Source: Venturia oleaginea
Taxonomy: Eukaryota; Ascomycota; Dothideomycetes; Venturiales; Venturiaceae
Assembly: GCA_013176395.1 (NCBI GenBank)
Contig: JABMLP010000022.1
Span: 1-64,000 of the forward strand
Reading direction: 5' to 3'
DNA: 64,000 bases
Part shown: positions 4,432-62,487 of the stretch, one piece after another
Numbering within the stretch: the first letter of the stretch is position 1
Layout: every line of letters begins with the position of its first letter
Program-made: the position numbers and the translations under genes
Notes under the pieces: generated by a model
Database searches by the model: none
Seen by the model: the letters and a program-made list of their open reading frames with translations, nothing else
What the model was told of the DNA's origin: nothing

Positions 4432-4495
4432 TAAGTTATTTTATACTCTACCTAAGTGTTCCTTAAGGCATACCTGGCTTGTGTATACCACCAAA

Positions 4496-8721: not shown

Positions 8722-9358
8722 CGCGTCTATGATTGAAGAACGAAGAATGATTTAGGCGTGACTCTGGAATGTATAGGCTGAGAAAAAATGGTGAAGTCGC
8801 TTTGTGGTCATAAGAATTAGGGTTTGACTGAAGAAAACATTATCTGGCTGCACTGGCCAATTTTGGCTTCAATTGTTTCACCCGGATTCAGATCTCCGCA
8901 GGTTGAGTAAGTTGCATGGCATCGAATTCCATCGTCCCTTCCAGTTTTACCACATCGTCTTGTTACAGTACAAATGCTCATGGAGCGATATTCTGACCAA
9001 TCCGAAACATACCACTGCATCAATTGTCGGGATCAAGATTCTCCCATGATCGATGGCATTATAAGAGCTTTGTAAGTACTGCTAATCGCATTTGATAGCT
9101 CGAGAAAATTGGGCGACTTCAACATTTGCTGGCAATCAGCCCCGATCATAACGATTCGATCCATTCATGTCAGGATTACAAGATTTTAACGCCTTTTGCT
9201 GGGCGTCTATTGGTGGCTCCTTCGTTGGTCGAGAATTTTCGAATCCTTCAGCTCAGAAATGTCATACCACAATGATCCATAGGAGCAATTAGGCATCGCC
9301 ACTTCAGATAAAGATGGTCTAACTTCTGCATGTGGAAAGGAACTAGCCGTGAAGCACT

Positions 9359-10110: not shown

Positions 10111-10490
10111 GATAGAGATGCGCTGGGATATTATACTAACTTAGTTCGAAGCTGTACCCTGGCATGTGCTGAGTTTCGCGGGAGGGGTGTCAGATTGTCA
10201 GTCGCAAAAGCCCAGCAGGCGGTCATGATCACGTCCTCGATCCGGCCATTCCTCGATCACGTCCTCGATCCGGACATTCCTCAAGTCGAGACAGCCTCAC
10301 TTTCCACCTTCTTCCGACAGACTTCAACAGTCCAGAATAATGGCAGCTCAGAGTCTGTGACAAAGGCCTGACATCCTGCTTATCCTTCTACACTCGCCTC
10401 CATCCTAGCTCGTCAACTGCCCAAACATCGTCACACTATCATTCACAACTCCCTAGTTACACGTCCCAAAGAGAATCCTGGTACACAAGA

Positions 10491-27123: not shown

Positions 27124-29950
27124 ATGAAGAAACTGACCATGCAGCTTTTCTTATCGTGTTTTCTGCTGGCGACTGCTTCCCTTGCCAAAGTCTTCATTGT
27201 GGAAACCGAGACAGATCAGGTAAGACTCTTTCTTCGGAGCTGCACATGCACGTGACTGATTGTGATTAGGATACCATTGGATTTCGTGAATTGCAAAACA
27301 TCATTTGTCTTGACGGCTTTCGTCCCAAACTCCGCCACGAGTTCTCAAGTCCACTCTTTTCAGGAGTATCTTTGGAGATTCCAGATGGAGGACCCCTCCA
27401 TAGCCTTGCACATGTCGAAAGTTGCTTGAAGAGCCAATCTGGGGTGAAAGGAGTCTTTCGATCACCACAATATACTTTGGCTGAGGATCCATTCGGCGAT
27501 GAGTCTTGGACGGCTACTACCGACCTCACTACCAAATACACAAGAAATCTCACTGAAATCAACACACTGCTGCGCTCGAGTAGTGTACACGAATCAACAG
27601 GCGTTGCTGAGTTACATCGTTCGAACATAACAGGCATCGGCATCACTATCGCCATTGTTGACTCTGGTCTAGACTACTACCACCGCGCGCTTGGTGGTGG
27701 GTTTGGGCCCGAGTTCAAAGTTACGTACGGGCGTGATTATTCTGGTGAACCTAGCACACGCTCCGAGTTTGATCCATACTCTGAATGTCGATACCATGGA
27801 ACACACGTGACTGGGATTGCTGCTGGCAAAGACCCGCTCATGGACTGGGTGGGCGTGGCCCCTGGGGCCAAGATTGAACATTACAGAGTGGTAGCTTGCA
27901 GGCTCGTCGCCATTGAAGCAGACACAATCATCAAAGCTGTTCTCGAAGCCCATGAGAGAAAGGTTGATGTGATATCGATTTCCCTATCCCTCGCTGGGGG
28001 CCCGTTCATCGATGGTACGACTCTCCTTGCAGCATGTTTCTACCCTCATCTAATTTCCGCTTAGATCCAGCAGCTATGGTCTTGACAAGAATCACTAACG
28101 AAGGACGCACCGTGTGCATTGTTGCAGCGGGCAACAATGGATTGATGGGTACCTTTGTAGCAGACTCGCCTGCCGCTGGACTAGGCGTGCTTTCTGTCGG
28201 ATCCTCAACCGTCCCTCATGTCACCAGATCTCGACCGGCCGCCCGCTTCAACATCAGTCCAAAGAATGTCTCCTACAAATTCCCATGGCAGCCTGCAAAT
28301 CCCAGTCATTTTCCGCAGACAATCCAACTCTTCGCTCTTACGCCCAACGCGAGCAAGGCTGAGGATGGCTGTTCTCCGCTGCCACCCACAACAGAAGACA
28401 TATCAAATAAGGCTTTACTCGTGCGCAGGGGCGGCTGCAAGTTCCGGCAGAAGATGCAAAATCTTCGAGACGCTGGGGGGAAATACTTGGTGATTCAGAA
28501 TTACAATAGTGGTCTCTTTGATTTTGATCTGAACGTTCCCGGTATGCTGGGAGCTGGTGCAGTATCGGACTCGATTGGGAAATACTGGCTGCAGCAATTG
28601 GCACAAGGCCAGCAAGTCACTTTGACATTGGACTCGGATTTCACCCAAACTGGCTACTTACTCGTGAGTAATTCGAGCCAACCTGGTGCCACTGTGTCAC
28701 CGCGAAGTTCGTGGGGACCGCCTGGCGGCGACATGCGCCTCTTCCCGTCACTTGTGGCTCCAGGCAACGGTGTGATGGCACCCTTCCCACGCTCTTGGGG
28801 TGGGTACGGTGCCCTTTCAGGTTCATCTATGGCTGCACCATATGCTGCTGGTTGTGTGGCCTTGATAAAACAAGCTCGACCTTGGTTATCCTCCCAGGAA
28901 ATCGTGTCCCTCTTGATAACTACAGCGGATCCGACTCCATTCAGCGATGGAACGAGCAAATCATTTAGCTTTCTTGCACCAGTTTGGCAACAAGGCGGTG
29001 GGAACATCGATCCCCTGCGAGCTATCAGAAGCACGACTTTGCCCGAGAAATCCTTCTTACCTTTCATCCACACTGAGTTCGGAAAGAGTCGAGGCTCGAT
29101 TGGAGTGCGCAATGTCGGGTTGAAACCAGTCCACTACGATCTTCAGACTGCTGCGGCAGTCACAGTCTTAACTCTTAGCGACCAGAACAAGACTGTCGTA
29201 CCGTGGACCAGAACGAACGAAACATCAGCCTTCGCGAGCGCAGAGTTCCTAGGCACTCTAAAGGGCGACATGGCAGCACTTTTGACTTTCGAGAAAAGCA
29301 ACTTCACACTTCAACCTGGAGAGAGCACTCAGATCCAGGTTACAGCAGCTTTGACCCAGCTTCAGCAATCACAAAAACGATGTCCAATATATGGGGGATA
29401 CATCAGTCTCGAGACCAACACGACTTCCGCCTTGCAGATACCCTACGGCGGCGTGGCTTGTTATTTACAAGAGTTCACGGTGCTTGAACAGACCTCAAAT
29501 TTTCTTTGGAGAGACAACTTTTGGTTCACGTCTCTTGGGTCCGCCACCAAAGCACAAGTAATTGATCCACAGACACCCCTATTTCCGATTCCCTCGAATT
29601 CCACATTCAAACTTCCTGGCTCAGGTGCTTCAAAAGATCTCAACACCGCCTCAACGACCTACCCTACACTGCTTCTGAGGTTGGCATTCTTCGCGAAGGC
29701 TGTCGACATAGACCTGGCATCGGCCGCCTCAAATGACACTCTCCATATTTCGCCATTCGCCAAGGATTTGACACATCGCCCCAGTGGGTTTAACCGCGTT
29801 GCAACAGCGTACCTTCTTTGGACAGGACAGATGGAAGACGGCAGTTGGGCCTCTCCAGGCACGTACTATTTCAGGGTTTGTGCGGTCAAGCCATGGTTGG
29901 CAGTGAGGGAATGTGTGACTACGGTGCCTTTCCACTTAAGTTACCTTTAG
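27124..29950 (+). CDS. Secreted subtilisin-like serine protease (S8) with PA insert
   Basis: Exons 27124-27219, 27270-28014 and 28065-29950 join to 908 residues. The start MKKLTMQLFLSCFLLATASLA is a signal peptide, followed by an inhibitor-like propeptide. The catalytic triad is D163 (AIVDSGLDYYH), H208 (YHGTHVTGIAAG) and S535 (GSSMAAPYAAG), with the oxyanion Asn in VAAGNNG. A protease-associated insert lies between His and Ser (about residues 370-450, LLVRRGGCKF). A long Fn3-like C-terminal part follows, as in minor extracellular proteases of Vpr type. It is predicted to act outside the cell. It is not a kexin: it lacks a P-domain and a membrane anchor. Confidence 0.9.
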
Positions 29951-31774: not shown

Positions 31775-33377
31775 ACCACACACAGCGAGAACTCAATTTT
31801 TGGAATTTACAGAATTATCATCTAAAGATCATCAAAACACCTCTGCCAGTGGCCGCTCCGGGCTCTAGAGGCCATCGCGCGTCCCTCAGCGTCGATGAGA
31901 TACCTCTAGAGTCGCCGTCGCGGCCACGGCATAGCAAGCACACGAATACATGAGCAAGCTACACGAACGATGCGTCCACCAAAGACAACAGCAACCATCT
32001 AGTCACTATCTCCCGGCTAGTCCATCACCCCAGATGACACTGCAACGCTACGAGTCGACGAGTCACCGCTAGAACGGCAATACCTTCAACACAACTCAAA
32101 CACCAGACGCCCGGTGTGCAACAATCGACACCACACACCACTGCAACGACTAGACAACCTCTCCCAACGTCTTGGCAAACCGTTCTGCTACAAGCTGTTG
32201 CCCAGAGCCTTGAGCCTCTCCCCAAACTGTTGCCTCCCAGTTATGGCATTGGCAAGAGTAGGTGCGCGACACAGTAAGTAGTAAGGACTTATAGAAGGAG
32301 CTTATTGGCGGCAAATCCCCTCCCTGTAAGCTAGCAGACGTAGCCTTGAGCCTCTCCCCAGACTGTTGCGTCCCAGTTATGGCATTGGCAAGAGTAGGAG
32401 CGCGATATAGCAAGCAGGGAGAGCGACTAGCAGCAGATAGGCTCCGACTATAAGACGACAGGTCTACAACACAATCGGTGCGACACGATACGGCAGCTGC
32501 TAGAGAACCTCATCTACTATCGTCTCCGCAAACCGTCCTGCTGCAAGCTGATGTTCAGAGCCTTGAGCCTCTCCCCAAACTGTTGCGTCCCAGTTATGGC
32601 ATTGGCAAGAGTAGGTGCGCGACACAGTAAGTAGTAAGGACGCATAGAAGGAGCCTATTGGCGGCAAATCTCCTCCCTGTAAGCTAGCAGACGTGGTCTT
32701 GAGCCTCTCCCCAGACTGTTGCGTCCCAGTTATGGCATTGGCAAGAGTAGGAGCGCGATATAGCAAGCAGGGAGAGCGACTAGCAGCAGGTAGGCTCCGA
32801 CTATAAGACGGCAAGTCTATAGCACGATCGGCGCCATACAATACGGCAGCTACCAGACGGCCTCGTCTACGGGCATACCCGGAGTATCACACCCAAGCAG
32901 CGAAATCACAACTACGATGGTTACTATTATCTCCAGCATCACACAACCAAATACACTGCCGCATAGGAATCTGGTGCAAGGCAACTTTCACAAGCAGAAA
33001 CATACTTAGGGAACCCATTGGCCTTGAGGGATAAGGCGAAACAGATAGACAAAGCTGAGCACTAGAGGGAGACTGTAGGTAGAAGGATAGCGAAACACGA
33101 GGCATTGCCTCTTGAGTCTACATAGCACAGATATACTAGCAGAGTAACCAGTATCTACAAGAGCCAGCGGGCATTTGGAGATACTGGTTAAGGGAAAAGA
33201 GGGAGGACGGAGGGGACAACTGGTCTTGTTTCAGTGAACGGGGCGAAGTGGGGCGCGGTGGATTATATAATCTATCACGTGTCGGGTGTCTGATGAAGTC
33301 CTCCTAACCGGACATAGCTGCGTGATTAAGCGGCTGCAACCGAGTAGGATAAAATCAATCAATCAATCAATCAATCA
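31735..33377 (+). mobile_element. Non-autonomous LINE derivative
   Basis: The 1643-bp insertion is flanked by a perfect 14-bp duplication, GTCGCACCAATAAC (31721-31734 and 33378-33391). It begins with a G plus about 36 A, then CACACAGCGAGAACTC, resembling the 5' UTR of the full LINE at 56563. Its last roughly 330 bp (from about 33045) match the LINE 3' end, including the block GGCTGCAACCGAGTAGGATA and the (AATC)n tail. The middle is unrelated to LINE ORFs and includes a 352-bp tandem duplication. It therefore carries LINE ends around foreign filler and would depend on the LINE for mobility. Confidence 0.82.
32155..32856 (+). repeat. 352-bp tandem duplication inside the LINE derivative
   Basis: Two copies of about 352 bp lie head to tail (for example, TGGCATTGGCAAGAGTAGG occurs at matching offsets). 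Each copy contains two shorter imperfect units starting CTTGAGCCTCTCCCC. No reading frame is conserved. Confidence 0.7.
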
Positions 33378-33686: not shown

Positions 33687-33997
33687 TGTTAAGGGATGGA
33701 ATCCTTCTCTCTAGCTTATCCATGACTGGATTTCCAATTGTTCTCTTGTTATTCTGCAAGCTGTCATGTTCTATTTTGCAAGCTGTCATGTTCTATTTCG
33801 CAAGCTGCCATGTTCTATTTCGCAAGCTGTCACGTTTCCATTTAAAGATACTTTCTAGAAGGATCTATTGTAAGAGGAGGATTATTTATACGAGCTATCC
33901 TTCCTGTATTTACACTTTCTTCTCTGTACTTAGATACTTTGAAATACAAGCAGTCTTCTCTCACTTGCGAAACACCTTTGAGGGTTGAACTCTTACA
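33687..33997 (+). mobile_element. Solo LTR, gypsy family
   Basis: The 311-bp LTR starts TGTTAAGGG and ends CTCTTACA, with the 5-bp duplication GTATC on both sides. Its 3' half (for example TACTTAGATACTTTGAAATA) is almost identical to the LTR at 34760-35040. It contains four tandem copies of a 22-bp unit starting GCAAGCTGTCATG at 33756 and a TATA-like GATTATTTATACGAG. This is the product of LTR-LTR recombination. Confidence 0.88.
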
Positions 33998-34002
33998 GTA
34001 TC

Positions 34003-34759
34003 GCGATACCATCCACCGATGAAGCTAAATTCGTCATTGCATCCGATAAATAACGCTACCATCGAGTTTCATCGAAGTCCTTATTATCGCGTTGACTCGA
34101 TGACTGAAGGGCTTGGTGGAGGTGGAGATCCATGGCAATAATGATGGAGTCCTGGCATCGGGTCCGATGAACTGGATGCTTATAGGGACTACCTCCGCCG
34201 CTCTATGCTGTGGAGGTGGAAATCGATGTCAATGTCGTGCTTAACGAGTGAATGAGGATATTCGCTTATAGCCCTGGCCAGAAAGACGTTAAACTTGGCG
34301 TGTTTGCGTGAGAAAATCCTGTGCTGGTAGATCTGAAACCGCCTACGAATTCATCGTACTCTCATCGGGACCGTCTGAAACTCAAATAGATCTGGCACGT
34401 ATTCAACGTACTATACCGTCGTGCATCCACCATCTTTACGCACCAACCACCCCGCCGAAATATTTTCAGCTTCTCTCCGTAAATATTTTAAGTCCTAAGA
34501 ATCTAGATTACGTATCTCTAAGGGAAGAGAATCCGCGCCTCTAACAGTTAGAATAGATTCTTTAAATCTGCTACCTTTTAATTTACCTCTGATACGGAAA
34601 ATATGAAGGGAAAATCTTAGAATTTACCTAGAGAAGCAAAGAAATTATTTCGTTAAGATAGTTAGTACGTAAATATAGTTATTGGTTAGTACAGCTAGCT
34701 AATACGTAGCCGTATAGTACGTTGAATACTTTACAGATCTATTTGGGTTTCAGACAAAC
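34003..34759. other. Between solo LTR and gypsy 5' LTR
   Basis: Contains the second copy of the 65-bp dispersed repeat (34153-34217). The rest is AT-rich with no supported gene. Confidence 0.5.
34153..34217 (+). repeat. 65-bp dispersed repeat, copy 2
   Basis: Matches 30637-30701 over its full length with about four substitutions. Confidence 0.7.
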
Positions 34760-35099
34760 TGTCAAAGGATAGATCCTTTCTCAACTTATCCTGGATGGAT
34801 TCTTAGCACTACCTGGTAGTTCTCACGTGCGCCTAGCAGGGATTATTCAGGGACCGTTTCACATGCGCTTCTACTCCTTTCTATTCTCTTCTCAGGACAG
34901 CATGTCCTTTTCCTACTTGGAAGATTATATATACAAGTTGTTCTTCCTGTACCTACACTTTCTTCTTTGTACTTAGATACTTTGAAATACAAGCAGTCTT
35001 CTCTCACTTGCGAAACACCTTTGAGGGTTGAACTCTTACATTATCTAAGTACCGCACCAATACCTCTTGCTGACAGTAAGAGAGAGTCTCTGCAGCAAT

Positions 35100-35205
35100 C
35101 GTCAGAGCAAAGAGAAAGCCCTCCATCGAGCGAGGTACCGAGAAAGCCCTCCATCGAGCGAGGCACTGAGAAAGCCCTCCATTGAGCGAGGCATTGAGAA
35201 AGAGT
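35100..35205 (+). repeat. 30-bp tandem repeat, about three copies
   Basis: The unit GAGAAAGCCCTCCATCGAGC plus about 10 bp is repeated three times with small changes, in the leader of the gypsy element. Confidence 0.75.
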
Positions 35206-35373
35206 TTGCTAGGTACCTCATAACCTAGGACGGATGCTACATCTTCTCATTGTGTAGTAATCACGAACGTCGAAGATTGAGAGTTGTTGAAACTTGTCCT
35301 TTGCGAAGGGATATCAACAACGTCCAAAGTGACACCCACAAGTTGAAAGTACTCCCAGGTCAATCCTGTTGGT

Positions 35374-36410
35374 GAGTCAAGGTCCTAAAGAGGACACCCA
35401 AGCCATTTCAGTACTCTCAGGAAGAGCCTGTAGAGTCAAGGTCCTAAAGAGGACACCCAAGCCATTTTCAGTACTCTCAGGACGAGCCTGCAGAGTCAAG
35501 GTCCTAAAGAGGACACCCCAGCCATTTCAGTACTCTCAGGAAGAGCCTGTAGAGTCAAGGTCCTAGAGAGGACACCCAAGCCATTTTCAGTACTCTCAGG
35601 ACGAGCCTGCAGAGTCAAGGTCCTAAAGAGGACACCCCAGCCATTTCAGTACTCTCAGGAAGAGCCTGTAGAGTCAAGGTCCTAAAGAGGACACCCAAGC
35701 CATTTTCAGTACTCTCAGGACGAGCCTGCAGAGTCAAGGTCCTAAAGAGGACACCCCAGCCATTTCAGTACTCTCAGGAAGAGCCTGTAGAGTCAAGGTC
35801 CTAAAGAGGACACCCAAGCCATTTTCAGTACTCTCAGGACGAGCCTGCAGAGTCAAGGTCCTAAAGAGGACACCCCAGCCATTTCAGTACTCTCAGGAAG
35901 AGCCTGTAGAGTCAAGGTCCTAAAGAGGACACCCAAGCCATTTTCAGTACTCTCAGGACGAGCCTGCAGAGTCAAGGTCCTAAAGAGGACACCCCAGCCA
36001 TTTCAGTACTCTCAGGAAGAGCCTGTAGAGTCAAGGTCCTAAAGAGGACACCCAAGCCATTTTCAGTACTCTCAGGACGAGCCTGCAGAGTCAAGGTCCT
36101 AAAGAGGACACCCCAGCCATTTCAGTACTCTCAGGAAGAGCCTGTAGAGTCAAGGTCCTAAAGAGGACACCCAAGCCATTTTCAGTACTCTCAGGACGAG
36201 CCTGCAGAGTCAAGGTCCTAAAGAGGACACCCCAGCCATTTCAGTACTCTCAGGAAGAGCCTGTAGAGCCAAGGTCCTAAAGAGGACATCCAAGCCATTT
36301 TCAGTACTCTCAGGACGAGCCTGCAGAGTCAAGGTCCTAAAGAGAACACCCCAGCCATTTCAGTACTCTCAGGAAGAGCCTGTAGAGTCAAGGTCCTAAA
36401 GAGGACACCT
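35374..36410 (+). repeat. Minisatellite with two-unit higher-order structure
   Basis: About 17 units of 59-61 bp begin GTCAAGGTCCTAAAGAGGAC. Two subtypes alternate regularly: one has CCCAAGCCATTTTCAG..GACGAGCCTGCAGA, the other CCCCAGCCATTTCAG..GAAGAGCCTGTAGA. The true period is therefore about 119-120 bp. Units are almost identical except at the edges (for example near 36275). The array lies between the 5' LTR and gag of the gypsy element. Confidence 0.93.
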
Positions 36411-36972
36411 AACCCAAGAAGCAAGGGCCAACCTCAAGGGCCAAACAAAAAGGAATTTCAAGAAGAGAACACTTGTCCTAACCCAAGAAGCAAGGGCCAA
36501 CCTCAAAGACCAACCTCAAGAGCCAACCTCAAGGGCCAAACAAAAAGGGAATTCAAGAGAATTCAAGCTGAGATTTTCTAGAAGGTGCTAGAATCTCCAA
36601 GAAGCAAGGGCCAATTGTAAGGGCCAATCCACAGTAAATTCTCGCAAAATTTACAAAGAGGAAATCAGAGGTCATCCTAAGACAGCGTAGTCTTAGGAGT
36701 TGAAGCTGTAATAAGCTGAGGAAAGAAAGAGTTAGGAAGAGAGATTCAATACCCTTGACCTTCATAGTCCCTAGGAGCTCTGTCCTTAGTAATAAGGGTT
36801 GCAGAGCAGACTGTCAAGGATGAAATCAGTCGGAAGGAAACTCAGCCTCAGAGCTTGTACTCGATGATTGGAACGTCAATCAAGATTGATAACCGCCTAT
36901 TCGAAAGAAAACTTCAGAGGAAGGGAGTTAGTTCTTATCGAGGACATGGAAACAACAGTCGTGCGAATATAG

Positions 36973-38117
36973 GTGTTTGAGTTGATTCATACGGACTGCA
37001 GCCAATGGAGCTCGACAAGATTCAGAGCGGTCCACGTGGATCCAAGAAAGGTACAGGTCAGAAAGCCCAAAAAGAACAACACTGGACGTTTCACGAATCA
37101 GGGACAACGATTCGGAAACTCACCCATGGGCTCAGAACACCTCAAGGCTTTACAATCCGATGCGTCAGTACCGCCAATCCACAACATACTGAGCTGGACG
37201 GCTTGTTATGAGGACGACTGCAAAGTACACCTATCCGAGAAGCAGAGCTCCGGATACTACCCTCGGGATAGAGGAGGTTACCAAGGTAACGGCAATGTCA
37301 AAGGACATCTCGCTATGATGAGTTCGTCATCTAGCTCACCCGGTCTTTATGGCACTCAGTTGGTATTGCCAAAAGCAGAGTATGGCACAAACCAATTCGG
37401 GGTTGAGAATACAATGGCTGCTGTCAAAGTTATCAGCAGATACCCAAGCATGAGAAAGAATCCGGAACACGATCTTCACTGGATGATTCCATCGAACTGG
37501 TACAAAGTCAAAGAATGCCCACTGTGGGAGCACAAGTCCGAGGAAGATCCAGGAGAACCAGATTGGGAATTCCACTGGTTCACGAAAAGGAAGTCAACAA
37601 TACGACCCTCAGGAAGATCATGAAAATCCCAAACATCAGTACAGATGTACAGCACGTCCACCACAGACACTCACCTATGAATTGCTGCTAGTATGAGGAA
37701 TGCGATTTACCTCAGCACCAGGAAATGAAAGATCTTGGAGAAATACTCCAAGAGTTGCCAGCCATTTCCGGGAGTTGGTCTACACCAAACGAAAACGAAT
37801 CTCTACAGTCTATGTCGGGCGACGACAGTGAGTCTACAGTAGAAGACAACTCCAACGAAGGAGAATCGAAGGAAGATCTAGAGTTTATGACCTTCCGGCT
37901 CTCACGTTTGACACGAGACGTTGAACGAGCAATTGATCAGGACGATTCTCAGTGCAAAGACGTCTATCCAAATGCATGCCTTGACTTCACCTGCCCATAC
38001 CATCCGAATGGGGCAAGGAACCTTCGACACCTTGTCCGACGATTGGACATCGCAGTCAAAACAAAGCAAGCACGCAAATGGCATGAGAATTCGGGAAACG
38101 AAGAGGATCAACAGTAG
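36973..38117 (+). pseudogene. Gypsy gag remnant
   Basis: The frame at 36973-37623 contains ILSWTACYEDDCKVHLSEK, typical of the gag/pol spacer of fungal gypsy elements. It breaks at 37623 and a related acidic segment resumes in another frame at 37725-38117. Upstream gag sequence is missing or merged into the minisatellite leader. Confidence 0.65.
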
Positions 38118-38128
38118 AGAAGGCCCTG

Positions 38129-40228
38129 TTGAATCCTAATGAAGCGCCTCATTTTCTGAACAACCTTGGTACATCCAAGATGCTGGTCGAAGGAAAGATC
38201 GACGACGTACCAGCATGGGCCTTCATCGACACTGGTGCCGATAGGAATCTTCTAAGCGACAAATTGGTCGACGAATGGAAACTACCCGTACGGTCGAAAC
38301 GGCATCCATATCCACTAACTATCGCTGATGGAAGACCTGTCAACTTCAATGGAGGCATAGTGATCTACGAAGCAGACATAATCTTGTGGATACAAGGGAG
38401 GAAAGAACAGATTGTTCTAGACGTCACGAATATTGGAGACTCGGATTTGATCCTTGGTCTGCCATGGCTTCGAACTCACAATCCGCATATCGACTGGAGA
38501 ACATTGACGCTCACGTTCCCAGACCAACGATATCCCGTGCAGGCTAGCATGCGCGCTAGAACACGGACAGCACAAAGACCTTTGCAGAAAAGGCCTACAC
38601 ACGTTGAAGTGGCATACTGCTATCGTCTCCAGACAGAGGAGGATAGGTCAGTGTTCCAAATTCCCCATAGGTACCAGGAATTTGCAGAACTTTTTAAAGG
38701 GGAATCGATCGAAGATTCTCTTCCACCACACCAACCATGGGATCATGAGATCAAGCTCAACAATAATGAACAACCAAAGAAGTTCAAGATCTACCCATTG
38801 AGGGAAGATCAGCTTGAAACCCTTCGTGAATATATCGACGATTTCACGAAGAAGAAGTTCATCCGGGAGTCGAAGTCACCCGCCGGATATTCAGTTTTCT
38901 ACGTACCCAAGCCCGATGGTTCACAACGATTGTGTGTCGATTACCGACATCTAAATGAGATTTTGGTGAAGAATGCGTACACGCTGCCTTTAATCCAGGA
39001 GTTGAGGGACAGACTCCAAGGAGCCAGATGATTCACGAAATTCGATATTCCTGCGGCTTTTCATCGAATTAGGATTAAGGAAGGTGACGAGTGGAAGATA
39101 GCATTCCGCACTCACCTTGAGCACTACGAATACCTTGTCATGCCCTTTGGTTTGACAAACGCCCCTGCGACGCTGCAAGCCTATATGAACAATGTGCTTC
39201 GCGAGCACTTAGACAAGTTTGTGTCTGTTTATATGGATGACATTTTGGTTTACTATCATCGAACGTTCGAAGAACACGCCAATCACGTTCGAACCGTTCT
39301 CCGCGCACTACAGATATTTAACTTGCGGCTGAAACCCTCGAAAAGCGAATTCCACAAGCAACGAATCAAGTTCGTTGGATGTTTTGTCTCTCAAGATGGA
39401 GTTGAGATGGACCCGGAAATTTACCAGAAGGTCCGCGATTGGCCGGTACCCTCGAACGTCAAAGGAGTACAGTCATTTCACGCCTTCGCGAATTATTATC
39501 GACAATTCATCGAAAGCTTTTCCGAAGTTGCAGAACCCCTCACGGGATTGATGAAGAAGGGGATTACCTTCGAATGGAACGAGCATGCGCAAAAGGCCTT
39601 TGACGCACTCAAGATACGGTTAACAACACCACCCATTCTGCAACTGTTTAACTCAAAAAAAAAAACAGCCACAGTCGAGGCGGATGCGTCCGATCGAGCC
39701 CTCGGAGCATGCCTCAGCCAACCCGATTCAGATGGAAAGCTTAGACCAGTAGCTTACCACACACGAAAATTCCTGAAAGCAGAAGTCAACTACTCCACTT
39801 CAGACAAGGAACTCATGGCCATAGTTGATGCCTTCAAGCACTGGAAGCATTATCTTGAAGGAGCGAAACACAAGATTACCGTGTATTCCGATCACAAGAA
39901 CCTGCGGAATTTCACGACGACAAAGGAATTGAATCGACGGCAACTAAGATGGTCAGAAGAACTGTCATTTTACAACTTCCATATCCTTTACAAGAAAGGA
40001 AAGGAAAACGTTAACGCCGATGCATTAAGTCGACGAGAAGACTTCATGGCAGGAGAAAAAGAGAAAGTCGAACGCGCTTTGTTCCGACAGAAGGTGATGC
40101 ACTTGTGCACCAAGTCTCATCACTTCAGACAGGAAAGTCCTCTTATTGGCAAGAGGTCAGGAACGCGCAGCAAAGGATCGAGATGTACAAGGCTACATTC
40201 AATCAGCAGATCAGAATACCCGTATTGA
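38129..40228 (+). pseudogene. Gypsy pol: protease, reverse transcriptase, RNase H
   Basis: One frame encodes the aspartic protease (AFIDTGADRNLLSDKL), then reverse transcriptase with YPLREDQLETL, the catalytic VYMDDILVY and PFGLTNAPATLQ. RNase H follows (EADASDRALGACLSQ) and then KKGKENVNADALSRRED. A TGA at 39029-39031 replaces the usual Trp before FTKFDI. The frame ends at 40228, and a short stretch of the next domain is readable in another frame to about 40370. No integrase core is present. Confidence 0.87.
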
Positions 40229-40478
40229 AGACGGATTGCTCCTCTTCAACAACTTGGTATATCTTCCCACGAGCCTTAGGAAACAATCAACACGAATCTC
40301 CACTCAATGGTCATTGCCGACCAGAGAGAACGCGGAACCTAATGCTACAGGCGTACCATATCCAGACGTGCCATGAGACGAGTAAATCATAGATATAGCC
40401 CGCGTCCCAACCATATCGAAGACACTTACAACCATCTATTACTTCTCAATTACGCAACATTCTATCCTCATATACAAG

Positions 40479-41109
40479 ATGAAGTTCGCTTACCAAATCC
40501 TTGCCTTCAGTGCGCTCGCCACTGCTATCCCTCTTGGATCTGCTGAAAATGCTCTGGTTGTCAGTGTTACCTCTTCCTGCTTCAACATCAAGAACTGACC
40601 GAACTTGAGCAGCGTGTACCAGCCGAGAAGGTATATGTCCCCCATGGAGACAGCGGATCCAGCTATGTGCGTAAAATCCCCTGTTGATCACCCCATTATT
40701 CAACCACCCCTCGCAATGATGTCGTTCATCAACTAACCACACTGAAATTAAATAGGACAAACGACAGGAAGGCGCCGATCCAAGCACTAGTTACGCTACG
40801 GAAAATGACGATGGAGCTCTCTACAAGGTTTCTGAGGAGAAGAGGAAACGCCAGGAAGGCGCCGATCCAAGCACCGGTTACGAAGGCGAAACAGACGACG
40901 GGGTTTTCTACAAGGCTTCCGAAGAGAAGAGGAAACGCCAGGAAGGCGCCGATCCAAGCACCGGTTACGAAGGCGAAACAGACGACGGGGTTTTCTACAA
41001 GGCTTCCGAAGAGAAGAGGAAACGCCAGGAAGGCGCCGATCCAAGCACCGGTTACGAAGGTGAAACAGACGATGGGGTTTTCTACAAGGCTTCTGAGGAG
41101 AAGAAGTAA
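40479..41109 (+). CDS. Secreted Kex2-processed repeat-peptide precursor
   Basis: Three exons: 40479-40556, 40610-40630 (acceptor 3 bp later also possible) and 40756-41109, about 150 residues. Exon 1 encodes a signal peptide (MKFAYQILAFSALATAIPLG). Exon 3 encodes four units of 29 residues, each RQEGADPSTGYEGETDDG then VFYKASEEKRK, joined by KRKR/KR sites for the Golgi protease Kex2. Unit 1 differs (SYATENDDGALYKVS). Units 2 and 3 are identical in DNA; unit 4 differs from them by silent changes within the core and ends KK-stop. Each mature peptide would begin with Gln, which could form pyroglutamate, and holds two Tyr and one Phe. The architecture fits Kex2-processed repeat proteins and dikaritin precursors. 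The gene starts about 100 bp after the truncated gypsy. Confidence 0.85.
40762..41106 (+). repeat. Four 87-bp coding repeats of the peptide precursor
   Basis: The units are 40762-40848, 40849-40935, 40936-41022 and 41023-41106. The length is a multiple of three and the frame is kept. Most variation between units 2-4 is at third codon positions. Confidence 0.95.
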
Positions 41110-41763: not shown

Positions 41764-42991
41764 CAGTAATACCAGGGCTACAAAATGAGCCATTCAGTGA
41801 GCTATTTAGTATTTTGTGTGCCAACCATCTGCCGCCAGTAATGCCCCAACCCTCCTTGGCATTGACTCAAGTACAGCATCAAAATAATGTTGTTCAATAA
41901 GCCGCCAGGCCTTAATAAGTGCTTCTTCTAGAACCTCTCGTATATTGTCTACACCGCCAGTAACGTATTCAATCATAGGTTCCACTTTGTAGACCAATTC
42001 TTTGAGCCTCCGCCAGAGGTTTTCAATCGGGTTCATATCAGGACTGTAGGGCGGCGCATCTTGTAGTGGAATGAGGTTTTCCTTAAACCAGACTGTAGTC
42101 TTTTTGGCTTTGTGGATAGGCGCGTTATCCTGCATAAATTTAAGGCCCGGTTCGTATACTGTAGGTAGCATTTCGTCGAGTAACTTGATATACGAGTTCG
42201 TAGAGTAGCCTTGACGCTTGCTCTCTAGGTCACGCTTAAGAATGTACAATTCAGAGCGCCCTGCTTGGCCAGAGAAGCATGCCCAAATCATGATAGACAC
42301 TCCTTTACCCTTCTTATAGGTATCAATCATTGAGGTCTCCCATTTTTGTCCTGGTGTGCGAAAACACCATGTTCTTGCCTTGCCGGTCCCTCGCTCAACT
42401 GAGCACTCGTCAGACCATATAATCTTCGCCCAATCTTCAGCTTTCCACGAGATGTGCTGCTCTGCCCAGAGCTTCCTGGCGTCAGCATGTACCTGTGTGA
42501 TGAAAGGGCGCCTTGCAGACCTCCAATTTGCGATTCCGTACTCTTTCAATATCCTCCTGATGGTATCCTTCGAAAAATCGATGCAAGCCTGTCTTTTGAC
42601 CTCCTCGTACGTTAACTTAGGCTGCGTACGTATAATACGTAACAGAGATCGTTCATCTCGGTCTGTATACGAGCGTGGCCGGCCGCTGGAAAGTAGGGAT
42701 TCGCCATTCTGGCGTAATGGGGCCTTTTCAAGGCTGTATTGGATGGTGGAACGCGGTAGTTTTTGTAGCGCCGCAATTGCGCCTAAACTGAGCCCGGCTT
42801 CACGCTGCGCATCAATTTTTCCGCGTTGATATGGAGTAAGACGATGATTAGGAAGCCTCTGCGGGTTTATAGGAGTCAATGGCTTTCGTTGAGGTGGCAT
42901 AATGGTAGTGCAAAGATAATGTGTTAAAAAAATGAGAGGTGTAGATTTCGCGTTTTCGCTTAATTGTACGGAAACTTTTGCCCTAGTACTG
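41764..42991 (-). mobile_element. Tc1/mariner element with intact transposase
   Basis: The 1228-bp element is flanked by TA (41762-41763 and 42992-42993). Its termini begin CAGTAATACCAGGGC on the left and CAGTACTAGGGC on the complement of the right, imperfect but similar. It carries an uninterrupted transposase ORF and sits inside the decayed copia gag, so it is younger than that relic. Confidence 0.82.
41806..42900 (-). CDS. Tc1-type DDE transposase, intact
   Basis: The chosen start (42900, MPPQRKPLTPINPQRL) gives 364 residues. Upstream in-frame codons to 43110 belong to the interrupted copia gag, not to this gene. A bipartite HTH occupies about residues 20-130 (LSLGAIAALQKLPRSTIQYS, then TYEEVKRQACIDFSKDTIRR). 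The catalytic acidic residues are in IIWSDECSVERG, KFMQDNAPIHKA and PPYSPDMNPIENLW. Length and motif spacing are complete, with no stop or frameshift. Cut-and-paste activity at TA is expected if it is expressed. Confidence 0.9.
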   Translation of the reverse strand: MPPQRKPLTPINPQRLPNHRLTPYQRGKIDAQREAGLSLGAIAALQKLPRSTIQYSLEKAPLRQNGESLLSSGRPRSYTDRDERSLLRIIRTQPKLTYEEVKRQACIDFSKDTIRRILKEYGIANWRSARRPFITQVHADARKLWAEQHISWKAEDWAKIIWSDECSVERGTGKARTWCFRTPGQKWETSMIDTYKKGKGVSIMIWACFSGQAGRSELYILKRDLESKRQGYSTNSYIKLLDEMLPTVYEPGLKFMQDNAPIHKAKKTTVWFKENLIPLQDAPPYSPDMNPIENLWRRLKELVYKVEPMIEYVTGGVDNIREVLEEALIKAWRLIEQHYFDAVLESMPRRVGALLAADGWHTKY

Positions 42992-44122
42992 TATATCTTG
43001 AACTGGCTCTCCCCTGGCTGTTCCATATCCATCTTGTCAGCAGTCGCAAAGAACGCCTTCTTTGCACGGGCCTGTTCTTCTGGGCAGTGTTTGCGGCTCC
43101 TACAGTCCATTCTACCACAGATCCAACATCCATTCTTGTTCTTCTGGCCTGGGGTGGTAGGAATGGGGTAGGATCAAATGGCTTCCTGTACCTTTGCCAT
43201 TCCTTTTTGCCTTGCCAATTTGACGTAGAAGAAGAATGAGTTTGTCTTGGCGCTCCGTATGACGGTTGAAATCTCTGCCTTCCATTTTCATGAAGCCGTC
43301 TGTCATTTAGGTATATGTCGTGCGACTCTTCAGATGTAATGACCTGCGTTGACTCTTTTCTCTCAAGTGCAAGTTGTAATGAAGCTCGGAGTTCCGCAAA
43401 TAGGTGTCCGCACGATGGATTAGGGCGCCTGAATATATCCTCCAATTCTCTTACACCTTTGCAAGCATTTGACCTTTGTTAAAGAATATCGTACGGTTCA
43501 CCTGTGAAATTACGATCTTTCCTCCAGGTTTTATTGAAGGCAATGATACCTTGGGGTGGTAGGTAGACATTTGGGATACTTTTTCGTGGTGGAAGTTCGT
43601 AAGAATCTGTTCCTGGGTCTCCTGGAGGTCCTGGGGAATATCCTTCTAGTGTGCCTTTTTCTTCGCACGAACCTCCTCCCCATCTATTATCATCCCATCC
43701 TCCCCCATTTCCATTTCCATTCTACCCTCCTCCACCACCTCCATAGTCTCTACCTCCTTTACCTCCTGAGTCATCTCCATCTGATGGATCTGGATTTTCT
43801 GGATTATCTGGTAGTGGTGGTGGGGGATTCTGGCGAGTTTGATTGCCCTTTTGCACGGCTGTTGGTTTTCTATCCTCTGCATACTCTCCCAAGTTAGATA
43901 ACCTCTTTCTTTCGTGCGACCTGTTGTATCTTGAGATTGTATACGTTGATCCTGATATTGCTCTTGCTCCTTTCGTGCGATTGAAGGACGTTGAGATCCG
44001 GATCCCTGTGTACTTGGCGACTCTTTCTTATCCGAAAATTCATCCCTTCCTGTGATTCTTTCGAATATTTGTTTTATCTGGTTTACCGCATCTGGTCGCT
44101 CCTGCGTACGAGTTGGAAACAA

Positions 44123-54775: not shown

Positions 54776-55899
54776 ACGTGTTTCACCATTCACTTGGCCA
54801 CCCCACTCACTTGGCCACCCAACCAAAAAGTCTAATCTCTTCGTACAATTACCGCGATAATGTCAACACCAACCCTCGGATCGGCTTGCAAAGAGGCTAG
54901 ATTACTTCTTGCGAAGCAGAGCTTTCAAACGAATCCAGATTTAAGTCAACGTTAAATCTCAGCGTCGTACGATATTCCTCGATCTACACTTCAGTCTCGT
55001 CTTCAAGGTGGTAAACCACGAAGCGAATCTAACCACCAAAAAGAAAGTTACAAATACATGAAGAGCAGGCTCTGGTTCAGTGGATCCTAGACCTTGATCG
55101 ACGAGGATTTCCGCCCCAAATTATCGACGTACGACGAATGGCAAACGCTTTACTCGAAAAACGCGGTACGAATCCTCCACCGTCATTAGTCGGGAAGAAC
55201 TGGGTATCCCGCTTCATCAACGCTCAGCCGGAGCTTTGTACGAAGTGGAATCGTAAATTCCATTCACAGCGTGCAAAATGCGAAGATCCAGCGACAATCA
55301 ACGCGTGGTTTCAGCGTGTTGAAGAGACGCCCTCACCACCAGGTACACCCCATGGAGTAGCGCCACAGTGGACGTCAGAAACTCCTCGTACGATAGCTCA
55401 GCTTGAGCAGCAGGCTCAGCTCGTCCGAAATCTTCTTCATCGCCAATCTCAGAGCCCAAGTAGTCAAGCAATTGGTCAACTCATCAAAGGATGTCAAGTC
55501 GCAATGAATTCAGCAGTAATACTTGCAGAAGAGAATAGGAAGCTTCGTACAGAGAACCAACGACGAAAACAGAAGCAACAGTATCGTAGACGATATATTG
55601 CATATGGGGGCGTTTTACAAGCTCAACAGGGTCAGTTCTTGGTCGAGGGATGCGAAAATAGCTCTAGAGATAGTGTTCAAGATCAGGAAGTCGTCGTACG
55701 ACAGCGAGCATTACCAACATGTAGTGGCTGCGGTATTCAAGGTCATAAGATTAATCGATGCCCAAATACGTAAAGAATGTATTGTTAGAATTATTTTAAT
55801 AAAAGCTGTATTGGTGGGAGGTTTATCGCACGATGACTTGAGATTTAGTGGTTGGGGTGGCCAAGTGAGTGGGGTGGCCAAGTGAGTGGTGAAACACGT
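54776..55899 (+). mobile_element. Pogo/Fot1-like element, copy 2
   Basis: The 1124-bp element has TA at 54774-54775 and 55900-55901. Its interior is almost identical to copy 1 (3342-4431). It differs by an added CACTCACTTGGCCACCC-type unit of about 17-18 bp at both ends. The encoded frame is broken. It entered the MITE at a site that reads CA at 127-128 of copy A. Confidence 0.88.
54860..55773 (+). pseudogene. Broken copy of the DDE-less pogo protein
   Basis: Compared with the intact ORF at 3408, this copy has a C-to-T change making TAA at 54953-54955. It also has a 1-base deletion in the A-run near 55037-55046. Everything after 55138 is open and identical in sequence class: CENP-B HTH, coiled coil and zinc knuckle. 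A 211-residue product from an internal ATG is possible but would lack the first HTH. Confidence 0.85.
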
Positions 55900-56558: not shown

Positions 56559-56686
56559 CGGAAAACACCACAACAGCGAGAACTGAGATCTTTGAAACTG
56601 AATAATTATAACGCAAATACACATCGCCTCAAGAGGGCTCAGGTTGTTCTAGGCTCGACGCGTCGCCCAGCGCGTAGAAACGAGAG

Positions 56687-58318
56687 ATGACAATACCGTG
56701 GCCTCAAGAGGTGGTCTGGCCGACCGGACTTCATGAGCGCGCTACACAAATCACAAGGCACCTTCGAAACGCATTACTCTACCTCGAAAGCGGACAGGCT
56801 CTACCTGTACCCCCAGACCAAGTAAAGGCAATTATCACGACGATGCTGCCCTTGATTGCAAAGGCCCAAAGGACCCCCGATATGACAACCGTCCACGATC
56901 AACTACGCATTATACACACTGAGATGACTCAAGACACAAAGGAAACGGCGAAGGAGATAGCTGGGATAAAGGGAGAACTTAAAGCTCTGAGAACAGACAC
57001 ACAGAAGAACATCACTATTGGTGAGGAAGCGAAAACGGCAGCGAAAGAGGCAACAGAGGTGAGCAAGACCGTTGCAGGAATAGCGAGTGATATCAAGAAC
57101 AAAGGGACACAATTCCAAACAGGCATGCCAATGAGCTATGCTGCTGCCGCTACCCGAGGAGGGCTAGCTACAAGCACACATAGCATACAAACCCAAAGTG
57201 TCAAGACTCCCGCGACGGTCCGACGTGAGATTATCGTAAACATCAGAAACGCACAAACGATTCAGAGCCTGCGCGCAATGAATCCACGCAATTTAAAAGC
57301 CCACGTTGATCGAGCCATTTCCCAAAGTCAAAACGAACATATAGCCAATCTAAAGATCATGTCTGCTAACCAGCTCAAAAGCGGAGATCTGAGCATCAGA
57401 ACGGCGACAAATAGTGAAATGCAGCTTCTCAGACAATTCACGGAGGACTGGACCCCACGTATTGGGAACGGGACGTCAGTACGAAATCCAACGTATGGCG
57501 TTCTTGTACATGGCATACGTACTAGTACGATGAATACAGACAAATTCGAGGAAACTAGAGACGCCATTCTGCAAGACAATAAGCCGTTTATTCCAACCGC
57601 GGACATCAAATACATTGGATGGTTGACCCGGAAGGCGCCAACAAAAGCGATGTCGTCGGTCATCATTGAGTTCACCAAGCCTGAGGACGCAAACAAGATC
57701 ATCGATGAAGGTCTGGTGTGGCAAGGGGAGATGTGTCAAAGCGAACGATATGAGAGACAATGCCGACTGAAGCAGTGCTTTCAGTGCTACAAATACGGCC
57801 ACATAGGAACTCAATGCAAAGCAGCGAAAACATGTGGCTACTGTGCGCAAGAACATAGTTCTAGGGACTGCCCTTCGAAGACTGGACAGACCACACCTAG
57901 GAAATGCGCCAACTGCCAGGGAGCCCATGAAGCATGGAGTCAACAATGCCCAACTATGAAGGAGGAACTCACTCGGACAAAGGCAGCGTACGCGAACAGA
58001 CCTCGGTATCACCCTACGATGTTCACCTGTGATGAAATACCTATTCAAAATTCCGCCCGAGAACCTCCTGGAAGAACGAGGTCAACCACAGACCTGACCT
58101 CACGCCAAGGGCCAAGGACCAGAGGGATGCAACTATTACCTGGAAATGGACAAAAGAGACCTGCTCCAGGAGACAAGGAGAACGAAGGATCACACCAGAG
58201 TCAAAGGCCACAAAGAGCAACGAAGATGTCGAGGAGGGCGCTTGAGGCGCTAGAGGGCAATACTCTAACATGTAGAAACACACAATACATGGAAATCGAT
58301 GAGGACTCGGATTTATGA
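56687..58318 (+). CDS. LINE ORF1, Gag-like RNA-binding protein
   Basis: The intact 543-residue ORF has an N-terminal coiled-coil stretch (about residues 65-135) and a middle RNA-binding-like domain. Three zinc knuckles follow: CFQCYKYGHIGTQC, CGYCAQEHSSRDC and CANCQGAHEAWSQQC, roughly residues 364-425. The C-terminus is basic and polar. It is expected to coat the LINE RNA in the RNP. The last codons overlap the ORF2 start. Confidence 0.88.
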   Translation: MTIPWPQEVVWPTGLHERATQITRHLRNALLYLESGQALPVPPDQVKAIITTMLPLIAKAQRTPDMTTVHDQLRIIHTEMTQDTKETAKEIAGIKGELKALRTDTQKNITIGEEAKTAAKEATEVSKTVAGIASDIKNKGTQFQTGMPMSYAAAATRGGLATSTHSIQTQSVKTPATVRREIIVNIRNAQTIQSLRAMNPRNLKAHVDRAISQSQNEHIANLKIMSANQLKSGDLSIRTATNSEMQLLRQFTEDWTPRIGNGTSVRNPTYGVLVHGIRTSTMNTDKFEETRDAILQDNKPFIPTADIKYIGWLTRKAPTKAMSSVIIEFTKPEDANKIIDEGLVWQGEMCQSERYERQCRLKQCFQCYKYGHIGTQCKAAKTCGYCAQEHSSRDCPSKTGQTTPRKCANCQGAHEAWSQQCPTMKEELTRTKAAYANRPRYHPTMFTCDEIPIQNSAREPPGRTRSTTDLTSRQGPRTRGMQLLPGNGQKRPAPGDKENEGSHQSQRPQRATKMSRRALEALEGNTLTCRNTQYMEIDEDSDL

Positions 58319-61300
58319 AAGAGAAGGACCAACTTAATATACTACAGTACAACGTACGCAAATCAAGGGATACGGTTATGGCAACTCTACTCCGTGATCC
58401 AAGAGTAGCAGAATACGATATCATTGCTATCCAAGAACCGTGGCGCAACCCCTTCATGTCGACAACACACCACCCAGCGAAGAATATATTCCACTTATAC
58501 TATCCGACAACGAACAAGGAGGATGGCCCAGCAAGGGTGTGTTTCTTTGTCAACAAAAGGCTAGACCACGGCAGCCTGCAATTCGAACAGCACACAAGAG
58601 ACGTCTGCTCATTGAGAATCAGTATCAACAATGGCGATCAAACAGAAAACGAGCTGGTAATACACAACGTCTACAATACGGTCCAAAACATGCCAAACCG
58701 CATCAGCTCACTGCCGACCCTAAGAGCTCGATTGGAGGAACACGCGCTGAAAGAACAGATGGTATTAGGCGACTTGAACTTACACCATAGAATGTGGGGC
58801 GGAGCGCAGGTCGCACACGAAGACCGAGAAGCGGAAGAACTTATCGAAATTATGGAGAGATTTGATATGTCAAGCATGCTGCAGCCCGGAACGGTAACGT
58901 ACGAAGAAGGCAGCAGCAGGACGACGATTGATATGTGCTGGATGACATTAGGCTTGATTGACAGGACCATCAGTAGCAGAGTAGACAGAGAGCTAGACCA
59001 CGACTCAGACCACCTCCCCATCAGCATCATACTGGATCTCCGGACGCGCTCCACGGAAATCAGGCCAGGATGCAACTGGAAACTCCTAGACTGCAAGGAG
59101 TTCTGCGGGACGCTCAGAGACACCCTACCGGCACGAAGGAGACCAAGGACGAAAGCAGCGCTAGACATGTACACGATGGAGTTAGTCAAAGCGATCAAAG
59201 ATGCAGCAGCGAAGACAATTCCCCTCACAAGACCATGCACCAAGGCGAAAGAGAGATGGGACGGAACATGCTCGAGAGCATTGGCAGATACAAAACGTCT
59301 AAGGCGCATACACGAGAGAAGACACACGGAGGAGACATGGGAAAACTATCGCGAGGCGAGGAACCACAAGACACGGACGATCAAGAAGGCGCTTCGGCAA
59401 GCACACAGAGACCGCGTAGAAATGGCAGCAAGCTCCACTGAATCCCTCTGGAAAATAGCTAAGTGGGCGCGCAATAGAGAAAGCCAGCCCCCAAGTGTGA
59501 CGCCAATTATCAAGTGTCCGACGACCGGCAACCAGGCTACTACACCCTCGGCAAAAACGATTCTCCTTCGGGACGCCTTCTTCCCAGCACCGCCAGAAGC
59601 AGACCTCGACGATCTATAGGATGCAAGATATGATGATTGTATACCAATGCCAAACGTTACTGAGAAGGAGGTACTGGACGCAATACAAGCAGCGTCACCC
59701 TTCAAGGCCCCGGGACCGGATGGGATCCCAAACAAGGCCTTGCAGACGGCATCTTATATGTTGGTGGGACACCTGGCGACAATCATGAACCAGAGCCTAC
59801 AACTGGGCCACTACCCGACACATTTCCAAAGCTCGACCACGGTAGTGCTACGCAAACCAGGGAAGGACGACTACTCGACTCCAAAGGCATACCGACCTAT
59901 TGCGCTCCTGAATACGATTGGCAAGGCCATGGACGCAGTAATCGCTAAGAGACTTAGCTACCTGGTGGAAACACACCAAGTCATCCCAAGGATGCACATG
60001 GGAGGCAGGAAGTTAAGGTCAACGGAACACGCACTACACGCTGTGATCGAGAGAATCTACAACGCTTGGAACAACGGAAAAGGACAAGTCGCTAGCCTGC
60101 TGCTCCTTGACGTGTCAGGCGCCTTCGACAACGTATCCCACAAGAGACTCCTACACAATCTTCGGAAAAGAAAAGTTGATGAGAGAACAGTACGATGGAT
60201 TGCTAGCTTCCTGAGCGATAGACGCACGCGAATTGTCATCGATGGCTACGAATCTGACGAGTACACGGTTGAGACTGGGGTACCACAGGGATCGCCCCTA
60301 TCCCCCATCTTATACATATTCTACAACTCTGACCTTATTGAGCAATGCGACTCAGGCGACGATACTGCAGCTACAGGCTATATCGATGACGCAGCCATAC
60401 TTACATGGGGCAACACAACAGAAGAAACGTGCAAGAAACTCGAAAACGCGCTGGAAAAGGCAAACTGTTGGGCAAAGACACATGCATCAAAATTCGCCTC
60501 AGAAAAGTTCCAACTGACACACTTCACAAGAAGACGCACCCGTATAAACACATAACAGCCCGTTCAAACGGCATGGGGATGCATTGCGCCTAAGACAACG
60601 TGCAAATATCTAGGCGTGACGCTAGACAGCAAACTCCAATGGAAGGAACACATCGAAGAAATCAAGCGGAAAACTACAAAAACAGTGAACGCACTGTGCT
60701 CTCTGGGCAGCTCAACATGGGGCGTCAGTCTGCTAGATATGCGAAAAATCTACCGCGGAGTAGTAGTCCCTCAGATGATGTACGCGTGTTCAATCTGGTC
60801 GAATTCAGGAATGAGGGGAAAACCATACACGAGAAAAACGCTCGACACACTTCAGTCAATCCAAGCACGTGCAGCACGAATTATCTGTGGAGCGTTCAAA
60901 GCGACATCCAGAGTCGCCCTCGACATAGAGACCTACCTGCTCCCAGTCGAACAACAAATCTGGAAACACAACACCGAAACCCTCAGCCGTACACTCACGT
61001 GCCAAGACCTCCCTAAACTGCTAGATACTCAATTCGGAGAACCAAGGTCAAGACAACGAGCAAGCTACGATAGCCCATTATACAACATATATCGAGACGC
61101 CGAAGAGAAAGGAGCAGCAAATCTCGACAAGCGAGAGACAATCCCGCCGTTCGTAGCAGCACCATGGTGGCAAGGCCCAAAGACACATATCGCACCAAGC
61201 GATGAAGCGGCACACTCTGAGCACGACTCCGTCACTAGAGTCGAGGGTAATATTTGCATCTATACAGATGGGAGTAGCATAGACGGACATACAGGCGCTG

Positions 61301-62196
61301 CAGCAGTCTGGCCGCTGAAAAGACAGACGAGAAGCACGTATATGGGCCCTGAGACGACCTCCACGGTGTACGCAGCTGAACTTCAAGGAATAAATCTAGC
61401 GCTGCATATGGTTCAAACAGACATCGAGGCAGGAAACGAACGGAGAGACATCAATATCTTCACCGACAACCAGGCAGCGATACGCTCGCTGACAAGGCCG
61501 GAAGGCCGATCAGGAGCATACATTGTCAAGCGGATTGTACAACGGATCACACAACTTCACGAGTACGGAGCTATCGTGAACATCCGATGGATCCCTGCCC
61601 ACGAGGGAATTGACGGGAACGAGGCCGCTGACCAAGCCGCCAGGGAGGCCACTGGATGGAGAGAAGACGGAGAGAAAGGACCAAGAGCTGATATGCCACC
61701 GGAACTGTACCCGCTAAGAACGACAATCAAGACGTGGTGCTGGTAGGTAGTGAATAAACAATGGTTGACTAGCTGGAAATCCGAGACAAAGGGGAAAGCC
61801 ACGAGGAGATACACACCTAAGCCTACTAAAAGGGTGCTCCAACTCCATCAAGACCGGAGCAAGCGAGAAAGTGCGATCCTCGTACAGATGAGAACTGAAA
61901 AGATAGGGCTCAAGGCCTTCCTCTTCAGCCGACGTGTCCAAGGTATCCCAGACTCTAGGTGTGACTGCCGTGAAGGGATGCAGACCGTAGCCCATATCCT
62001 CCTGGAATGCCGCAAGTTCCGGGACATCCGGAGAGACGAGTTGGGCCGCTTCCCAGGACGAAACAACCTCCGGAATATCTTGACTACGCATAAGTTAGCC
62101 ACAAAAGCTATCAGATTCATGGAACAGACGCGGGTCCTTGGGCATAGTGGGATCGAAAACGCGCAGACGACGCTGAGCATTGAGGGGAGACTGTAG
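58315..62196 (+). pseudogene. LINE ORF2: APE endonuclease, reverse transcriptase, RNase H; three stops
   Basis: A single frame of 1294 codons holds an exonuclease-endonuclease-phosphatase domain (ILQYNVRKSRD, IIAIQEPW, LGDLNLHHRMWGG, DHDSDHLPI). Reverse transcriptase follows (KAPGPDGIPNKAL, YRPIALLNTIGK, LLDVSGAFDNV, TGVPQGSPLSP, GYIDDAAIL). RNase H is next (IYTDGSSIDG, AAELQGI, FTDNQAAIRSL, IPAHEGIDGNEAAD). A C-terminal CX3CX7HX4C-type knuckle is CDCREGMQTVAHILLEC. TAG (59617-59619), TAA (60553-60555) and TAG (61744-61746) interrupt it; no frameshift is needed. Confidence 0.88.
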
Positions 62197-62460
62197 GTAG
62201 ACGGAAAGCGAAATATGAGGCATTGCCTCCCGGAATCTAGATAGCACAGATGTACTGGTAGAACAACCGACATTTACAAGAGCCATTGGGCATTTGGAAA
62301 TAGTGGTTGAGGGAAAAGAGGGGGGATCGAGGGGATAGCTGGTCTTGTTTTGGTAAGCAGGGCGAAGTGGGACGTGGTAGATCATATCACGTGTCGGCTG
62401 TCTGATGAAGTCCCCCTAACCGGGCATAGCTGCGTGATTAAGCGGCTGCAACCGAGTAGG

Positions 62461-62487
62461 ATAAAATCAATCAATCAATCAATCAAT
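62461..62487 (+). repeat. (AATC)n tail of the LINE
   Basis: ATAAAATCAATCAATCAATC continues to about 62487. The same type of tail ends the LINE derivative at 33350-33377. Confidence 0.9.

Follow-up and report, generated by a model that had tools for sequence, protein, structure and literature searches.

The repeat-peptide gene and its surroundings

The window, by which we mean the whole stretch of 64,000 nucleotides of Venturia oleaginea DNA that was analysed, belongs to a 1.16-Mb contig (C15). On its forward strand lies a gene model of three exons joined in phase 0, which yields a predicted precursor of 163 residues (Table 1). The first-pass annotation had placed a repeat-peptide gene with two introns here, and its coordinates are correct, with the ATG at 40479 and the TAA finishing at 41109; the two predicted introns also agree with it, as judged from their splice signals and the reading frame. 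The translation of exon 1 opens MKFAYQILAFSALATAIPLGSA and resembles a signal peptide by a crude rule of hydrophobicity and a small-x-small pattern. For intron 1 the alternative acceptors 40612 and 40627 are likewise in frame, so that the start of exon 2 is not fixed to one position. The locus is most likely a real fungal gene of an ordinary kind, encoding a secreted protein from which four short acidic peptides, nearly identical to one another, are released.

Table 1. Positions of the predicted gene and of neighbouring features in the window.
Feature	Position	Strand	Description
Inverted-duplication arm	1-62481		partner C15:115424-172897; match gaps 33687-33995 and 35041-40326
LTR	34760-35040	+	281 bp, TG...CA; solitary in the second arm, flanked there on each side by CAAAC (by eye)
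Gypsy-type LTR element, internal part	35041-40326	+	Pfam reverse transcriptase, RNase H and aspartyl protease; truncated ahead of the integrase region
Upstream stretch common to both copies	40327-40478	+	152 bp; arm alignment resumes at 40327
Exon 1	40479-40559	+	MKFAYQILAFSALATAIPLGSAENALV, signal-peptide-like by the crude rule
Predicted intron 1	40560-40609	+	50 nt, GTCAGT...CTGAC...GAG
Exon 2, spacer	40610-40666	+	QRVPAEKVYVPHGDSGSSY
Predicted intron 2	40667-40755	+	89 nt, GTGCGT...CTAAC...TAG; CTAAC branch-site-like
Exon 3	40756-41109	+	DKR, four 25-residue units split by KRKR, final KK, TAA
Tc1/mariner-like transposase frame	41809-43173	-	downstream of gene; Pfam DDE_3 and HTH_Tnp_Tc3_2

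A Pfam search with the precursor gave nothing above noise (best E 0.58), and no match was obtained among PDB sequences (best E 0.19). Scans of viral and prokaryote contigs returned 4 and 14 pattern matches, respectively, none encoding a relative, as expected for a fungal gene.

Among the frames scanned elsewhere in the window are a DUF3405 gene, a LINE-like reverse transcriptase, a MULE transposase, an alkaline phosphatase, a SET protein, a Zn2Cys6 factor, an aldo/keto reductase and an acyltransferase. A subtilase (27270-29947; Peptidase_S8, PA and fn3_5) extends over two overlapping frames, which could reflect an intron or decay. The stretches 3352-4421 and 54803-55872 are 98.9% identical and overlap frames with a Tc5-type transposase DNA-binding domain. 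A tandem duplication of 353 bp in 1.9 copies is found at 32168-32851, and a minisatellite of 119 bp in 8.8 copies lies at 35374-36416, within the gypsy element and close to the 5' LTR.

Four near-identical units between dibasic sites

The array in exon 3 consists of four 87-nt copies according to TRF; another repeat listing gives three overlapping 174-nt copies spaced 87 nt apart. In translation, the pattern QEGADPST[GS]Y...YK[AV]SEE is repeated four times in units of 25 residues, each with 7 or 8 acidic residues, one basic residue and neither Cys nor Trp. Unit 1 is QEGADPSTSYATENDDGALYKVSEE, which occurs once, and units 2-4 are QEGADPSTGYEGETDDGVFYKASEE, which occurs three times. The four units bounded by dibasic sites are therefore as first described, apart from the extent of KRKR: it stands at the internal boundaries only, unit 1 follows a single KR, and unit 4 ends in KK before the stop. 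Of the Tyr and Phe that had been called conserved, every unit has Tyr at both positions, whereas the Phe is not conserved, unit 1 reading A-L-Y-K where units 2-4 read V-F-Y-K. When the repeat exon (117 residues) was modelled with AlphaFold without an alignment, no confident fold resulted (mean pLDDT 52.6).

Units 2 and 3 have the same DNA sequence. Compared with unit 4, each shows five differing sites, four of which are silent in the repeat frame (binomial P ~0.008), and the fifth, non-silent difference is the last K/R residue. Between units 1 and 2, six of the 17 differing sites are silent, which is no clear excess (P 0.12).

Comparison with the KEX2-processed repeat proteins

The gene fits the sequence definitions of KEX2-processed repeat proteins (KEPs) given in two surveys (Le Marquer 2019, PMC6339444; Umemura 2020, PMC7329392). 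One sets at least three tandem units of 8-100 residues between KR, KK, RK or RR (PMC7329392), and the window gene has four of 25 residues. The other sets a repeat share of at least 15% of the protein (PMC6339444); here the repeats account for 100 of the 163 residues. Both ask for an N-terminal signal peptide by SignalP, one survey adding that no membrane helix be predicted by TMHMM (PMC6339444, PMC7329392), and in the window gene the putative signal peptide is that of the crude rule only. The signal-like start, the near-identical units between KR or KK sites, at least three in number, and the compact array are shared with the KEPs of both surveys. It is by these definitions, and not by listed sequences, that the gene is likened to the class; its unit strings were not seen in the papers searched. 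As to the first-pass suggestion that the peptide product may be undescribed, a search of open-licence full text, supplements lying outside its scope, with six unit strings returned no fungal paper, the sole match being an unrelated one on cancer. A broader word search returned nothing.

The surveys list 7878 (PMC7329392) and 1193 (PMC6339444) KEPs. KEPs are widespread: those of the former survey were detected in 1345 of 1461 strains. Of the 7878, 2560 are without a homologue, and a unit sequence peculiar to one gene is thus nothing unusual in this class. One printed motif, KEP motif 3 (DADAATXYV[A/V]D; PMC6339444), has an ADxxTxY core that aligns with ADPSTGY and ADPSTSY of the window gene. 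In this comparison, which used the printed consensus only, 2.45% and 0.95% of 2000 shuffled units scored equally high, and with six motifs and two units the likeness is not significant after correction. Besides PMC6339444, strings like motif 3 were found in the full-text literature in two unrelated papers only. We take the resemblance as a lead rather than as membership.

The first-pass proposal, a Kex2-type precursor with repeats lying among transposons, is supported by the sequence. A P_proprotein domain occurs once in the genome, within a 902-residue open frame on C13. This frame is as expected of a Kex2 and, by its P domain only, is a candidate for the processing enzyme.

Two gene copies in an inverted duplication

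The genome searched comprises 46.08 Mb in 61 contigs; 5.8S rRNA had no match in this assembly, and the rDNA may be absent or missed. The gene was found at two places, both on C15, namely the window copy and a second copy at 136800-137427 on the reverse strand. The one further match, on C17 (E 0.118, 34% identity), appeared by eye to be an unrelated acidic protein and was set aside.

Both copies lie in the arms of an inverted duplication, which was found by comparing C15:1-184000 with itself, considering rows above 500 bp and 90%. The window segments 1-10933, 10880-33686, 33996-35040 and 40327-62481 match 172897-161959, 161958-139159, 139165-138121 and 137579-115424, respectively, at 99.9-100% identity. 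The arms span 62.5 kb in the window and 57.5 kb in the partner. The contig starts within the window arm, the true outer end of which lies beyond the contig, and the inner edge at 62481 coincides with the boundary of a LINE-like element (56570-62481). Besides its arm copy, this element has an inverted copy of 100% identity at 78538-84449, suggesting very recent movement or duplication.

Two sites separate the gene copies, 40897 and 41061. The second copy has one residue changed, D94N in unit 2, and one silent difference, at 41061. Neither copy has lost the open frame or any KR site, and the intron sequences are identical. Over 40327-62481 the arms differ at six positions, two of which fall within the 346-bp array (P ~0.004); this clustering could reflect faster change in the repeat or an assembly error in it.

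The DNA upstream of the two copies is not the same. The gypsy fragment ends 152 bp before the ATG of the window copy and is missing at the second copy. Where the window arm holds 5286 bp of gypsy sequence (35041-40326), the other arm holds 541 bp (137580-138120), and dispersed repeats of short length occur in this native DNA, with 29 matching stretches if its own is counted. At least 53 stretches in the genome match the gypsy element, the window's own included, and two copies that were inspected, on C26 and C59, continue past the point of the window cut and finish in a 281-bp LTR. By eye, the LTR of the second arm looks like a solo LTR with a target-site duplication. In the simplest history, a full element would have stood upstream of the gene; in one arm a solo LTR would have remained beside the native 541 bp, and the window arm would have lost the end of the element together with the native DNA up to -152. 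The 152 bp common to both copies are presumably the core promoter and 5' UTR. Accordingly, the description of the gene as intact is right for its coding part but not for its upstream region, where a cut-off gypsy element takes the place of native DNA. The promoter of the window copy is doubtful because the DNA beyond -152 has been replaced, and the copy may be silent; the second copy is therefore the better one for study.

These observations lead to the question whether the gene is a former KEP that is stranded among transposons, has lost the upstream control DNA of its window copy and yields no product. The gypsy fragment in place of the 541 bp and the transposase close downstream would fit such decay, as would D94N and the accumulation in the array of two of the six differences of the 22-kb arm segment. 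On the other hand, the frame is open and every KR site is present in both copies, the introns are unchanged between them, and the second copy retains 541 bp more of upstream DNA. We therefore consider a decaying or silent gene unlikely.

Dikaritin, pheromone and chance readings

The dikaritins (ustiloxin, phomopsin and asperipin-2a) have the same precursor layout and Tyr in their units. Each unit of the window gene holds Tyr and Asp/Glu within a KEP layout, and a dikaritin-type RiPP could arise if UstYa-type oxidases from other parts of the genome oxidised and crosslinked Tyr, together with Phe in units 2-4. UstYa (PF11807) and tyrosinase (PF00264) were searched exon by exon with the best candidates scored, a procedure that may miss a short exon. 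Among the best-scored candidates were 23 UstYa stretches on 14 contigs and 25 tyrosinase stretches, none of either on C15. The presence of UstYa stretches on 14 other contigs would allow crosslinking in trans, and Tyr is enriched in the published KEPs linked to DUF3328, the UstYa domain: it occurs in 65.6% of the units of KEPs near DUF3328 and in 38.2% of the remainder (PMC7329392). The Tyr in the window gene thus leans mildly toward the DUF3328-linked type and away from a linear peptide.

Against this stand the contig itself, with none of the 23 UstYa and 25 tyrosinase stretches, and the published distances, which average 3.09 genes for the 22% of the 7878 KEPs that have DUF3328 in one of their 15 nearest genes (PMC7329392). 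The precursor units are shorter as well, with 13 residues in ustiloxin, 14 in phomopsin and 8 in asperipin (PMC7329392) compared with 25 here, and the window gene differs further in having no YXIX core. The UstYa match that does adjoin a KEP-like gene in the same genome adjoins a different one. This gene, at C5:721661-725263 (L038), has PLFAK units and KREAEA sites resembling those of Ste13 and lies beside a UstYa match, forming a probable dikaritin-like cluster, as read from its sequence. It is at least one such case among the 20 UstYa loci scanned (L019-L038, 1.5 kb on each side, several overlapping) in a scan that was strict and of short range.

Among the scanned neighbours in the window, none is known to be a defining partner in dikaritin clusters. 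An oxidised or cyclised dikaritin-like product, as raised in the first-pass annotation, is hence unsupported, and we judge it improbable. Since no UstYa was found on the contig, the gene fits the larger group of KEPs that are not linked to DUF3328.

The yeast-type pheromone precursor named alongside it found no support. Ascomycete alpha-type pheromone precursors share the precursor layout; they are described by a Cys/Trp-type core and Ste13 dipeptides (PMC6339444), whereas the units of the window gene contain neither Cys nor Trp and do not start with an XA or XP dipeptide for Ste13.

An open frame alone is weak evidence for a gene of this kind because the array has further open frames. Dinucleotide shuffles were therefore made of the 400 bp upstream, and each was scored for a model with an ATG, an equal signal-like start and 0-2 introns (GTNNGT donor, CTRAY branch site, AG) leading in frame into the KR repeats. 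One of the 1000 shuffles gave an equally good model into the repeat frame, odds that are somewhat overstated by a rule devised after the gene was seen. The unshuffled sequence gives three models under this rule, distinct only in the acceptor of intron 1. That the locus is a minisatellite open by coincidence, preceded by a signal-like ORF that arose by chance, would agree with the several open array frames and with the other minisatellites of the window, but is made very improbable by the shuffles, by the KRKR between units and the stop where the array ends, and by the four silent changes among the five in unit 4.

Proposed maturation of the precursor and its meaning

Taken as a whole, we think it probable that the gene encodes a KEP that is secreted and cut by Kex2 and Kex1 into four acidic peptides, probably pyroglutamated and most likely linear and otherwise unmodified. 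We infer a course that runs from splicing and secretion through cleavage and pyroglutamate formation to a linear peptide with a biological role. The signal peptide would direct the precursor into the ER and the secretory pathway, Kex2 would cleave after each KR in the Golgi, and Kex1 would remove the C-terminal K/R. This is the published order of events, in which entry to the ER by the signal peptide precedes cleavage of dibasic sites by Kex2 in the Golgi and trimming of basic residues by Kex1 (PMC9769878). Four 25-residue acidic peptides would be released, QEGADPSTSYATENDDGALYKVSEE once and QEGADPSTGYEGETDDGVFYKASEE three times, with calculated monoisotopic masses of 2680.09 and 2675.14, or 2663.07 and 2658.11 as pyroglutamate. 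Their N-terminal Gln makes conversion to pyroglutamate likely, and with Glu as residue 2 of the unit no trimming by Ste13 is expected. The peptides would most likely be secreted linear and otherwise unmodified.

Linear pyro-Gln peptides from KEPs, with Gln likewise directly after KR, have been detected in Coprinopsis cinerea (PMC9769878). That fungus is a basidiomycete and its peptides have other sequences; the product of the window gene, by comparison, is a predicted one. Coprinopsis KEPs have also been expressed in Pichia pastoris (PMC9769878). KEP functions are called largely unknown in the same paper (PMC9769878), and secreted signal and interaction factor are among the functional classes named in the KEP surveys. 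The peptides of the window gene may have an extracellular role, either in signalling or in interactions with other organisms.

As a speculation to which we give little credence, the gene might represent a KEP type not described before, the acidic Tyr peptide being a lineage-specific signal or interaction factor, or else crosslinked in trans, and a recent inverted doubling having cost one copy its upstream control DNA. The picture of the KEP class is unchanged by the window gene, which adds to it a case with precise peptide masses, two natural copies that differ upstream, and a UstYa-linked KEP-like gene as a contrast.
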